This document shows positions 21,138-26,122 of a stretch of 45,963 nucleotides of DNA, in pieces. Numbering within the stretch: position 1 is the first letter of the stretch; each line of letters opens with the position of its first letter. The stretch is from Actinomycetota bacterium (GTDB lineage Bacteria; Actinomycetota; Actinomycetes; Mycobacteriales; Pseudonocardiaceae). The stretch covers positions 1 through 45,963 of the forward strand of contig JAJPIR010000362.1 in the NCBI GenBank assembly GCA_021324675.1, in the 5' to 3' direction. The notes under the pieces are model-generated. The model searched no databases. It was not told where the DNA came from and saw nothing but the letters and a program-made list of their open reading frames with translations. Both the position numbers and the translations under genes were made by a program.

Positions 21138-22295
21138 CTAGGGGCGATTCGCCGGGGTGCGCCAGTTGATGGTGGGGCGCATCAGTGACAGGTCGGCCCG
21201 ATCGATGTGGCGGGCGGCGACGGCGAACAGGGAGTCGATCAACGTGTCGGACAGCAGGTGTGGCTGCAAGCCCAGTCCGACCAGGCCGGTGTGCACCACG
21301 TTGTAGTAGTGCTCATCCAGTTCCACCCGGGGATTGTCCAGGTACTCGACCTCCACGTTCCCCGGGAAAGTGGCCGCGACCGTCTTGGCGATGTCGGCCA
21401 CCGACATCGTCTCGGTGATCTGATTGAACACCCGGAACTCGCCCGGGGCAGCTGGGTTCTCACAGGCCAACCGGATGCACTCGATGGTGTCCCGGATGTC
21501 GATGAGACCCCGGGTCTGCCCGCCTGACCCGTAGACGGTCAGTGGGTGCCCCAGCACCGCCTGAATGACAAACCGGTTGAGCACCGTGCCGAAGACCGCG
21601 TCATAGTCGAAGCGGGTGACTAGGCGCGGGTCACGCACGGTCTGATCGGTCTGCTGGCCGTAGACCACGCCCTGGTTGAGATCGGTCGCCCGCAGGCCCC
21701 ACGTCCGGCAACCGAATTCGATGTTGTGGCTGTCGTGCACTTTGGTGAGGTGGTAGAACGAGCCGGCCTTCTTCGGGTACAGCATGCGGTCGGTGCGGCC
21801 GTTGTGCTCGACGGTCAGCCAGCCTTCCTCGATGTCGATGTTCGGCGTGCCGTATTCGCCCATTGTGCCCAGTTTGACGAGATGGATATCGGGGTCCACC
21901 TCGGCGATCGCGAACATCACGTTCAGCGTGCCAATGACATTGTTGTGCTGCGTGTACACCGCATGCTTGCGATCGATCATCGAGTACGGCGCGGACCGCT
22001 GCTCGGCGTAGTGCACGATCGCGGCGGGCCGGAAGCGACGCACGGCATCGAGTAAGAATTCGGCGTCGAGCAGGTCTCCGACGAACAGCTCGAGGCAGCG
22101 GCCGGATACCTCCTGCCACGCCCGTACCCGCTGGTGCAGGGATTCGATGGGCACCAGGCTTTGCAGTCCTAGCTCTTCGTCGTACGAGCGGCGGGCGAAG
22201 TTGTCCAGCACGGCGACGTCGTGTCCCCGATCCGATAGGTGTAAGGCTGTGGGCCAGCCCAGGTAGCCGTCACCGCCGAGAACGAGGATCCGCAC
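21138..22295 (-). CDS. sqdB: UDP-sulfoquinovose synthase-like SDR (SQD1/SqdB family)
   Basis: 385 residues from GTG 22295, seven bases after a perfect AGGAGG; the longer frame from 22394 reads through this site. The protein tracks plant SQD1 closely: [15 protein letters not shown] (residues 8-21), [112 protein letters not shown], and [29 protein letters not shown]. The catalytic Thr144, Tyr181 and Lys185 are at almost the same numbers as in SQD1. SQD1 joins sulfite to UDP-glucose to give UDP-sulfoquinovose. Here it is divergent from gtrA and next to glycosyl-transfer genes. Enzyme class is very likely; the product is inferred. Confidence 0.85.
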
Positions 22296-22423
22296 CGTGT
22301 TGCCTCCTGCCAGGGGAAGGACCAGGGGAAAACCAAAGGAAGAACCGCTGCGTTTGCCTATCAGATGAGCCCGAACAACACCAAACACCAACAAGGGTTA
22401 TCGGGCTCTGCGAAGATGAGGCC

Positions 22424-22927
22424 GTGCCCCGACAGCTGATCCAATCCCGTCTGGCCCGGTTGTTCACCCGGTTCGCCGCGGGCACGTTGGTCTCCACGGC
22501 GTGTAGCCAGTTGACGCTGGTCCTGCTGTTCGGGGTGCTCGATGCCTCAGCCGCCGTCTCCGGGGCAATGGCCTTCGTGGCCGGAGCGGTGCCCAATTTC
22601 CTCATCCACCGGTTCTGGACATGGCGGCTTACCGGGCCAGTGGCGATGCGCCGCGAACTCGTGCCCTACCTGGCGGTGATCAGCGTCAGCGGCTTGGTCG
22701 CGGTGGGCATTACCACCTGCGTCGACCGGCTGCTCGGCAACACCGTTGCCGACCACATGTGGCGCACCGCTGTCATCGCGGTCGTCTACGGCTTGAGCTA
22801 CCTGCCGGTCTTCGTACTCAAATTCGCCTTGCTGGATCGGCTGGTGTTCGGCGCCGAGTACGAGCGGACCCGCTGGCGGCGGGCTCGCGACTCCCGTAGC
22901 CAGGTCCCCACCAGCACCCGGGCGTAG
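22424..22927 (+). CDS. GtrA-family membrane protein (putative lipid-linked sugar flippase)
   Basis: 167 residues from GTG 22424. Four helices in the GtrA arrangement: RFAAGTLVSTACSQLTLVLLFGVL, AAVSGAMAFVAGAVPNFLIHRFWTWR (the conserved N-F-x-x-x-R-x-W-x-W block), LVPYLAVISVSGLVAVGITT, and RTAVIAVVYGLSYLPVFVLKFALLDRLVF. GtrA proteins are thought to flip polyprenyl-phosphate sugars or to modulate arabinogalactan assembly at the cytoplasmic membrane. It is divergent from the SqdB-like gene (128 bp) and its 3' end overlaps the convergent glycosyltransferase gene by 130 bp. Confidence 0.88.
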   Translation: MPRQLIQSRLARLFTRFAAGTLVSTACSQLTLVLLFGVLDASAAVSGAMAFVAGAVPNFLIHRFWTWRLTGPVAMRRELVPYLAVISVSGLVAVGITTCVDRLLGNTVADHMWRTAVIAVVYGLSYLPVFVLKFALLDRLVFGAEYERTRWRRARDSRSQVPTSTRA

Positions 22928-25134: not shown

Positions 25135-25180
25135 CGGCTCCGCTCCGGTGTGGTCCGAGGTGTGCGGGTGGCGGTGCGGG

Positions 25181-26122
25181 TCATGCGTCGCCTCGCCAGC
25201 AACGGGCGTCCTGCCACACCGTGGCCAACCCGTCGATCAACGCGACGGCCGGCTGGTAGCCCAGCTGCTCGCGGGCCCGGTTGATACTGACGATGACCGC
25301 CGGCATTTCACCCGGCTTGGGAGCGACGTGCTCGGCCGGTAACGGGCAGCCGGTGACCTTACGCACCAGCTCGACGAGTTCCAGCACGGTGACCGAACAG
25401 CCCGAGCCGATAATCGCCGCACCGGTAAACCGCCGATCCCAGGCTGCGAGCACGCCAGCCACGGCATCATCGAGGTGCACGAAATCGCGCCGCTGTAGCC
25501 CGTCGCCGTAAATCTGCACCCCGGCGCCAGACAGTGCCGCGCGCATCATCCGCGGTACGAAACTGTCCTTGTGCTGCATCCCCGGGCCGTAGATGTTGGT
25601 GAAACGCAAGGCGCTGGTGGCCATGCCGTAGGCGCCTCGGTAGCCATGCAGAAGCATTTCGGCGGCCGCCTTGGTGGCGCCGTACGGGGTCAAAGGGCGC
25701 AGCGATGCCGCTTCGTCCATGATGGCGTGACCGATGTCGCCGACCACCGCGTTCGTCGAGGCCATGATGAACCGATCGACGCCGGCCTGCCGGCAGGCTT
25801 CCAACAGCTCCTGGGTCACGGCGACATTTGCCTGGTAGGTGGCAACCGGGTGCTGAACCGACCGCAGTACGGAGGTGATGGCGGCGAGATGCACCACGCC
25901 GGCCAGCTCTGCGCCACCTGCGTCCGCGATGGCATCGGTGATCACCTGCGGGTCGGTCAGCTCCCCCACCACGCTGCGGACCGCAGGATCTGGATGGGCC
26001 CTGCGATCCACCACGGTGATCGGGTGGCCGCGGCCGGCGAAGGCCGATACCACCGCACGGCCGACAAAGCCGGCGCCTCCGGTAATCATGACCCGGCCGG
26101 CGCCGGCTGATGTAATGGCCAT
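25181..26122 (-). CDS. NAD-dependent epimerase/dehydratase (extended SDR, GalE-like)
   Basis: 313 residues. Rossmann motif MITGGAGFVGRAVVSAFAGRGH, then VVHLAAITS, active-site Tyr and Lys in PYGATKAAAEML, RFTNIYGPGMQH and RRDFVHLDDAVAGV. These identify an extended SDR acting on an NDP-sugar (4-epimerase or dehydratase type); the Ser of the triad is in MASTNAVVGD. It is 46 nt upstream of the fused glycosyltransferase and 12 nt downstream of the aminopeptidase on the same strand, so it likely supplies a sugar nucleotide for the same glycan cassette. The exact sugar is not readable. Confidence 0.87.
   Translation of the reverse strand: MAITSAGAGRVMITGGAGFVGRAVVSAFAGRGHPITVVDRRAHPDPAVRSVVGELTDPQVITDAIADAGGAELAGVVHLAAITSVLRSVQHPVATYQANVAVTQELLEACRQAGVDRFIMASTNAVVGDIGHAIMDEAASLRPLTPYGATKAAAEMLLHGYRGAYGMATSALRFTNIYGPGMQHKDSFVPRMMRAALSGAGVQIYGDGLQRRDFVHLDDAVAGVLAAWDRRFTGAAIIGSGCSVTVLELVELVRKVTGCPLPAEHVAPKPGEMPAVIVSINRAREQLGYQPAVALIDGLATVWQDARCWRGDA

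Follow-up and report, generated by a model that had tools for sequence, protein, structure and literature searches.

A conserved actinobacterial gene cassette predicted to make a sulfonated sugar and place it outside the cell

What might a uridine diphosphate (UDP)-sulfoquinovose synthase do beside the genes of a lipid-carrier glycosyl-transfer system? Sulfoquinovose is known above all from the headgroup of a photosynthetic sulfolipid. The question is raised by a stretch of 45,963 nucleotides from a member of the Pseudonocardiaceae (Actinomycetota; assembly GCA_021324675.1, contig JAJPIR010000362.1), hereafter the window, which is contig G000:C359 of a genome that is 95% complete (G and L numbers denote genomes and loci). 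A homologue of the synthase (SQD) lies there with gtrA, a gene that fuses a GT-C-like half to a glycosyltransferase family 2 (GT2) half, and a gene for a second short-chain dehydrogenase/reductase, SDR2 (Table 1). The initial annotation proposed that sulfoquinovose, or an analogous sugar, is loaded on polyprenyl phosphate and delivered to the surface. The placement of SQD in a tree and the conservation of its neighbours, both drawn from sequence, support that proposal, and we put at roughly 70% the probability that the product of the cassette is a sulfonated sugar placed outside the cell. Families, residues, linkage, co-occurrence and replacement of SQD in its slot were established by computation.

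The phmmer score of SQD against Arabidopsis SQD1 (1qrr/1i24) is 543 bits (E 3e-162), the two proteins share 59.6% identity across 381 columns, and the SQD1-like active-site strings noticed at the outset in this 385-residue protein are borne out: Thr145, Tyr182, His183 and Lys186 of SQD1 correspond to T144, Y181, H182 and K185 of the window, unchanged in 61 of 61 aligned rows. Within the pattern [ST]MG...YxxxK (T144, M145, G146, Y181 and K185), Thr, Gly, Tyr and Lys stand in all 61 rows and Met in 59. The mutant data of PMC4388408 on the archaeal enzyme Agl3 give His95, Arg101, Met145, Tyr182 and Lys186 mutants as inactive and T144A as still active. M145, Y181 and K185 are clear counterparts to these essential residues, and H95 and R100 resemble His95 and Arg101, as judged without the Agl3 sequence in the alignment; SQD1 position 101 is Arg in 45 of the 61 rows and Pro in 16. 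The tree has 61 rows, for which 59 loci were chosen to stand beside the window and SQD1 (usable pieces came from 150 loci; Agl3 was left out). It unites the main-type cassette SQDs, lone copies and the SQD of L121 in a clade of 29 rows (support 100/100), to which a wider clade of 45 rows (98/89) adds plant SQD1, five rows from a different family of actinobacteria and the S. meliloti-type SqdB, whose rows sit on a long branch (1.63) and are unsure in their exact place. Phylogeny, which the initial annotation named as one test of its proposal, sets SQD in a supported clade with plant SQD1 and the SqdB-type rows. On homology, active site and tree, we infer that SQD makes UDP-sulfoquinovose from UDP-glucose and sulfite. 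The list of PMC4388408 already includes SACE_5690 of Saccharopolyspora erythraea, assigned by sequence as a UDP-sulfoquinovose synthase, so that the SQD gene alone is not new. The nearest named matches of the window SQD are metagenome-assembled genomes of Pseudonocardiales.

The neighbours of SQD travel with it. From 554 confirmed SQD relatives, the best 80 were kept for counts of neighbours within 7 kb, with a threshold of 150 bits for SDR2. SDR2 was present at 76 of these 80 loci, GT2 at 77, GtrA at 75 and GT-C at 73, with all four at 71; the nine loci without the full set are three lone SQD copies (L060, L068 and L079), one on a 4.6-kb contig (L057), and L050, L065, L097, L102 and L112. Flanking genes vary among at least five contexts: the kin of the window carry glgM/pepA-side genes, and other sets mark Saccharopolyspora/Actinopolyspora, Kribbella, two Amycolatopsis groups and Saccharomonospora/Prauserella. 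Gene order within the cassette is reshuffled in L110, L111 and L130. The cassette genera are Saccharopolyspora, Actinopolyspora, Amycolatopsis, Saccharomonospora, Prauserella and Kribbella, together with Nonomuraea, where GT-C was not detected. The four-gene block is a conserved unit, and the neighbour conservation on which the initial annotation had staked its proposal holds; chance neighbours are ruled out by the full set of partners at so many loci despite changing flanks.

A further line of evidence comes from two genomes, G042 and G050 (L126 and L127), in which the cassette stands among the flanks known from Saccharomonospora/Prauserella with an SQD only 44-45% identical to that of the window. 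This type forms a 100/100 group with an SqdB-type gene of S. meliloti (L156), which we take to be the studied sqdB and which precedes a glycosyl transferase gene, and with Pelagovum and Rhodococcus rows. In G042, SQD has the direction seen in Saccharomonospora cassettes. L172 places an SQD 67% identical to the L126 copy, and assigned to its type from this identity, in a row with SDR2 and GT2. Since UDP-sulfoquinovose synthesis is the activity that both SQD lineages are known to share, the cassette slot probably needs it. The record behind L156, CP090106.1, is named pSymB, measures 3.72 Mb and has ruvB near SQD; it is presumably a mislabelled S. meliloti chromosome.

Genes of sulfur metabolism also adjoin SQD in relatives. 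A TauE/SafE-family gene does so in 12 of the 80 loci, all from Saccharopolyspora and Halosaccharopolyspora (family checked on one locus, PF01925 at 1.8e-39; the protein cluster has 18 members over all loci). At L122:7013-10281 (G065), SQD diverges from genes for CysH and CysD, both above their NCBIfam cut-offs, beside which a further gene appears CysN-like by eye; no cassette genes were found in the 20 kb fetched. In L158, a gene for 3′-phosphoadenosine 5′-phosphosulfate reductase follows SQD.

Co-occurrence across genomes was measured in two sets. Among 120 relatives (E cut-offs of 1e-60 for SQD, 1e-70 for SDR2 and 1e-20 for GT-C), SQD was found in 39, SDR2 in 37 and GT-C in 43, with all three in 35. 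SQD and SDR2 occur together in 35 (Fisher p 2e-23) and GT-C occurs in 37 of the 39 SQD-bearing relatives (p 3e-22), p-values that overstate independence, as 11 of the 120 belong to the genus of the window. SQD occurs without SDR2 in G065, G082, G092 and G095, and SDR2 without SQD in G006 and G009. A class-wide draw of 296 genomes, with loci L170-L183 scored by tblastn, gave SQD in 13 and SDR2 in six. In all six SDR2-positive genomes (the window's own and those of L170, L171, L172, L173 and L174), SQD and GT2 lie at the SDR2 locus; the SQD piece of L174 (G612) is cut by the contig end, hence its absence from the 13. SQD loci without SDR2 number eight, of which seven were fetched and G619 was left out: L176, L178, L179 and L181 have GT2, L175 and L180 have a family 4 glycosyltransferase (GT4), and L177 gave neither with these queries. 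In this draw, SDR2 tracks SQD more closely than GT-C does.

Several of the observations weigh against the proposed function, including the shared genus noted above. GT-C matched 50 of the 296 class genomes, of which 43 lie outside the set of 13 SQD-bearing genomes, mostly at 30-40% identity; because GT-C relatives are common without SQD, this family is not specific to sulfo-sugars. In five relatives (G001, G005, G006, G008 and G009), no SQD was found next to the SDR2 and GT-C that they keep, the locus having been fetched for G001, G006 and G008; G001, G005 and G008 carry SQD elsewhere in the genome, and no SQD was found at E<=1e-60 in G006 and G009, drafts given as 90% complete. GtrA was undetected in L050 and L065, GT-C was undetected in L097, L102 and L112, and SQD in G050 is reversed relative to the Saccharomonospora cassettes. 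Finally, on NF041015, the curated NCBIfam equivalog model for UDP-sulfoquinovose synthase, the window SQD scores 460.8 bits against a cut-off of 575. Plant SQD1 itself falls under that cut-off (484.7 bits), as does the S. meliloti gene (332.1 bits), and no genome in a phylum-wide draw of 396 exceeded it. The NF041015 threshold is narrower than the family and, given the plant and phylum results, was not taken as defining.

The part played by SDR2 determines which sugar would be delivered. Among PDB sequences it matches MoeE5 best (4.5e-48), followed by a UDP-N-acetylglucosamine (UDP-GlcNAc) C4-epimerase and the UDP-glucuronic acid (UDP-GlcA) 4-epimerase of Bacillus cereus. A structural model (predicted local distance difference test score 87) retrieved C4-epimerases at Foldseek ranks 1-12, the 4,6-dehydratase DesIV at rank 13 and Rv3634c at rank 33. 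The GalE equivalog TIGR01179 scores SDR2 at 146.1 bits against a cut-off of 262.3, and a dTDP-glucose 4,6-dehydratase model scores it about as high, at 148.5 against 365.1. S122-T123-N124-A125, Y147 and K151 are unchanged in 19 of 19 rows. An Asp-Glu/Asp-Lys pair is the 4,6-dehydratase fingerprint among the SDRs treated in PMC8987622; SDR2 lacks it and has the C4-epimerase fingerprint of YxxxK with Ser/Thr. Sequence and model thus favour an epimerase, and linkage to SQD suggests UDP-sulfoquinovose as its substrate. In the B. cereus enzyme (BcUGAepi), Arg185 holds the carboxylate of UDP-galacturonic acid (UDP-GalA), as given in PMC12338863. The same region reads QHKD in SDR2 and QRPD in 6zl6, in an alignment gapped there. 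Lys185 of SDR2 was considered as a sulfonate-binding residue and dropped, as the HKxS motif also occurs in an SDR only 37% identical (L182); HKxS-like motifs occur in other SDRs. It is tempting to speculate that SDR2 is a UDP-sulfoquinovose 4-epimerase, that the cassette is the first biosynthetic route to UDP-sulfofucose, and that soil actinobacteria of several orders put 6-sulfofucose on their envelope via a lipid carrier; we hold this tentatively, as a reading with somewhat less than an even chance.

The fusion protein supplies two transferase halves of different certainty. The initial annotation had placed GtrA, a GT2 domain and a second sugar-nucleotide SDR beside SQD, and PF04138, PF00535 and PF01370 confirm all three. 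The GT2 half scores with the NCBIfam models DPhHxTase (3.6e-29) and PpgS (1.9e-28), both under cut-off; PpgS model NF058614 gives 99.5 bits against 370, and this half may work like PpgS without being a member of that family. Foldseek on the fusion model returned GpgS, ArnC and DPMS, and the 50 matches listed are all GT2-type and silent on GT-C. The GT-C also claimed for the fusion is a candidate assignment: the predicted model of the N-terminal half has many helices, and members of its family match PMT and PMT_2 weakly (18 and 16 of 30 at E<=0.1, best 8e-8), while the profile of this half found no match among PDB sequences. Naming it from Pfam alone was abandoned, as the N-terminal half of the window protein has no match under 1e-3; GT-C is a weak call.

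Our favoured model, in which each catalytic step and the acceptor are proposals, is as follows. SQD would join UDP-glucose and sulfite into UDP-sulfoquinovose, on which SDR2 might then act, less surely, most likely by inverting C4 to yield UDP-6-deoxy-6-sulfo-D-galactose (sulfofucose). At the inner membrane face, the GT2 half would pass the sugar from UDP on to polyprenyl phosphate; GtrA would assist or flip the lipid-linked sugar, and the GT-C half would attach it to a glycan, glycolipid or protein of the envelope. The initial proposal is thereby refined: the delivered sugar may be the 4-epimer of sulfoquinovose, because SDR2 resembles C4-epimerases and follows SQD closely.

The best-known role of SQD1/SqdB enzymes is the synthesis of sulfoquinovosyl diacylglycerol (SQDG), and SQD might serve this ordinary purpose with a GT4 encoded elsewhere while its three neighbours add an unrelated sugar and merely co-travel. 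SQD and GT4 are paired elsewhere in the phylum, in L121, L175 and L180, in a different arrangement and with no SDR2 found there, and a second SQD copy is encoded in the window's genome, as is a GT4 with 38% identity to that of L121. However, this GT4 sits in a tandem of two GT4-like open reading frames (ORFs), which we take to be MgtA/PimC-like, the cassette has no GT4 apart from the neighbouring GlgM, and chance travel fails to explain a linkage of SDR2 and GT2 to SQD that extends beyond the taxonomic order of the window and includes two lineages of SQD; we consider such an arrangement unlikely. A plain SQDG operon in the cassette itself is ruled out by the lack of an SqdX- or SqdD-type transferase beside SQD, where the sole GT4 is the glycogen-type GlgM, as the initial annotation had also stated. 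Less probable still, and in our view very unlikely, is a drifted SQD homologue that performs, for example, 5,6-dehydration of UDP-glucose without sulfite, so that the sugar is not sulfonated. UDP-sulfoquinovose synthases do yield UDP-glucose-5,6-ene when sulfite is lacking, as described in PMC8987622, and the NF041015 shortfall could be read in the same sense; yet plant SQD1 shares that shortfall, the active site of SQD is intact, a second lineage of the family fills the same slot, and TauE and CysH/CysD genes adjoin SQD in relatives.

A more serious possibility, though one we think will rather prove wrong, is that SDR2 makes a second donor, such as UDP-galactose, UDP-N-acetylgalactosamine (UDP-GalNAc) or UDP-GalA, so that two sugars are handled and GT2 uses plain UDP-sulfoquinovose. 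The nearest solved relatives of SDR2 are indeed C4-epimerases of UDP-glucose, UDP-GlcNAc and UDP-GlcA, and the four class-draw loci that have SQD and GT2 with no SDR2 match indicate that this pairing can do without SDR2. Set against this, SDR2 stays with SQD in 6 of 6 class-draw genomes and 35 of 37 relatives, more tightly than GT-C in the class draw, and the window cassette has a single GT2 domain; the QHKD stretch, in its gapped alignment, is weak evidence that UDP-GlcA is a less likely substrate.

The reading of the cassette as a device for surface delivery of a sulfonated sugar is set out by gene in Table 1, in which the boundary between the fusion halves (about residue 508) was chosen by us. 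SQD starts at GTG or possibly, in a longer form, at the TTG at 22394; gtrA and the fusion gene overlap tail to tail by 130 nucleotides. No sigma-70 promoter came up in a scan of the sequence, and one terminator-like site did, below the shuffle mean. The ORF at one edge of the region is presumably DUF3117-like. The M17 aminopeptidase gene adjoins SDR2 in the kin of the window and in G027 (L125), where SQD lies on the same contig about 200 kb away. At the glgM locus of three genus mates, L114, L116 and L117 (G001, G006 and G008), SDR2, the GT-C::GT2 fusion and GtrA are kept and SQD is absent; G001 and G008 have lone SQD copies at other sites, and none was found in G006.

Table 1. Genes of the cassette and its flanks, with positions in the window
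Feature	Position	Strand	Basis and proposed role
glgM	19905-21071	+	GlgM, TIGR02149 above cut-off; flanks cassette
SQD, UDP-sulfoquinovose synthase homologue, 385 aa (amino acids)	21138-22295	-	phmmer match to plant SQD1, E 3e-162; active-site residues; tree
gtrA, GtrA-type small membrane protein	22424-22927	+	PF04138, 2.7e-11; proposed partner/flippase for lipid-linked sugar
GT-C-like::GT2 fusion, 778 aa	22798-25134	-	Whole gene
GT-C-like polytopic half of fusion, about aa 1-508	23610-25134	-	Helical model; weak PMT_2/PMT; proposed extracytoplasmic transferase
GT2 half of fusion (GT-A, DPMS/PpgS-like)	22798-23609	-	PF00535, 7.5e-16; proposed polyprenyl-phosphate loader
SDR2, extended SDR	25181-26122	-	PF01370, 3e-55; C4-epimerase-like; proposed to act on UDP-sulfoquinovose
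M17 aminopeptidase gene	26135-27646	-	Between SDR2 and DUF3117-like ORF
ORF, 76 aa	27689-27919		Flanks region

Other settings of SQD add to this picture. In the window's own genome, the second SQD copy (76% identical; L113:2290-6687, G000:C251) directly follows HpnR, a hopanoid C-3 methylase (836.8 bits, above cut-off), and beyond them lies a glycosyltransferase gene weakly like diglucosyl diacylglycerol synthase; L060 has the same HpnR-SQD order, as judged by clustering. A sulfo-sugar hopanoid or glycolipid from this second locus is conceivable. Eight of the 80 loci have, within 7 kb of SQD, a methyltransferase like that at L110:7213-7950 (Methyltransf_23 in Pfam, without an NCBIfam match at 1e-20), and the same type occurs at the SQD locus of L170, L173 and L174; it may methylate the sugar. 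On the Pseudonocardia autotrophica plasmid pPA12743CP (L154), typed mobilizable, an SQD (71%) is divergent from a GT2 gene and has a cysteine-synthase-family gene downstream, and this plasmid is a possible vehicle for the spread of SQD. In Haladaptatus (L157:4995-8196), two SDR genes come after SQD; their identity to SDR2 is about 26-27%, and they lack its STNAV motif. The contig CAJCJE010000542.1 (L057), titled Candidatus Melainabacteria, carries an SQD of the Pseudonocardiaceae clade, and its title is probably wrong.

If the proposal is true, non-photosynthetic soil bacteria would be producers of sulfonated surface sugars, and an anionic group would be added to the envelopes of cassette-bearing species, whose genera include ones used in antibiotic production. 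Modification of a phage receptor would be suggested by analogy with the corynebacterial system. The origin of sulfofucose would have a directly testable proposal, and, should the sulfofucose reading be right, soil degraders of this sugar such as Paracoccus wurundjeri would have a terrestrial source.

Among known systems, the sulfolipid pathways of plants and cyanobacteria (SQD1-SqdX) and of rhizobia (SqdB) share the first enzyme, UDP-sulfoquinovose synthase; the cassette differs in having lipid-carrier machinery in place of an SqdX- or SqdD-type transferase. Agl3 of Sulfolobus acidocaldarius likewise supplies UDP-sulfoquinovose for surface glycoconjugates; it is archaeal, however, and forms its own cluster apart from the bacterial enzymes in the tree of PMC4388408. 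The sugar of the predicted SDR2 product, sulfofucose (6-deoxy-6-sulfo-D-galactose), is reported from Fucaceae glycolipids and Thermoplasma acidophilum N-glycans; PMC12421959 (2025) describes sulfofucose catabolism and says that, until then, neither a biosynthetic nor a catabolic pathway had been identified. Neither the cassette nor a UDP-sulfoquinovose epimerase is described among the matches listed in the open-access literature searched, a scope outside which preprints and most subscription papers fall.

The closest counterpart is the galactosamine decoration of arabinogalactan in mycobacteria and corynebacteria, whose parts are of the same kinds: a C4-epimerase, a loader of polyprenyl phosphate, a partner protein and, as the last transferase, Rv3779, presumably a GT-C. 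In the mycobacterial pathway as outlined in PMC9671496, the C4-epimerase Rv3634c gives UDP-GalNAc, PpgS with Rv3632 loads polyprenyl phosphate, and Rv3779 moves galactosamine to arabinogalactan, the flipping and deacetylating factors being given there as unknown. By analogy, the gene set of the cassette appears to match this pathway, a second refinement of the initial proposal: the GT2 half scores with PpgS, and Rv3634c is among the structural matches of SDR2. Unlike that system, the cassette adds a UDP-sulfoquinovose synthase, fuses GT2 and GT-C in the window and gathers all the genes in one cassette, and its proteins fall short of the PpgS and GalE cut-offs. Kribbella and Nonomuraea, which are not known to have arabinogalactan, carry versions of the cassette, so the acceptor need not be arabinogalactan. 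Because it combines the same kinds of parts with SQD, the cassette may be read as a sulfo-sugar version of the galactosamine pathway.

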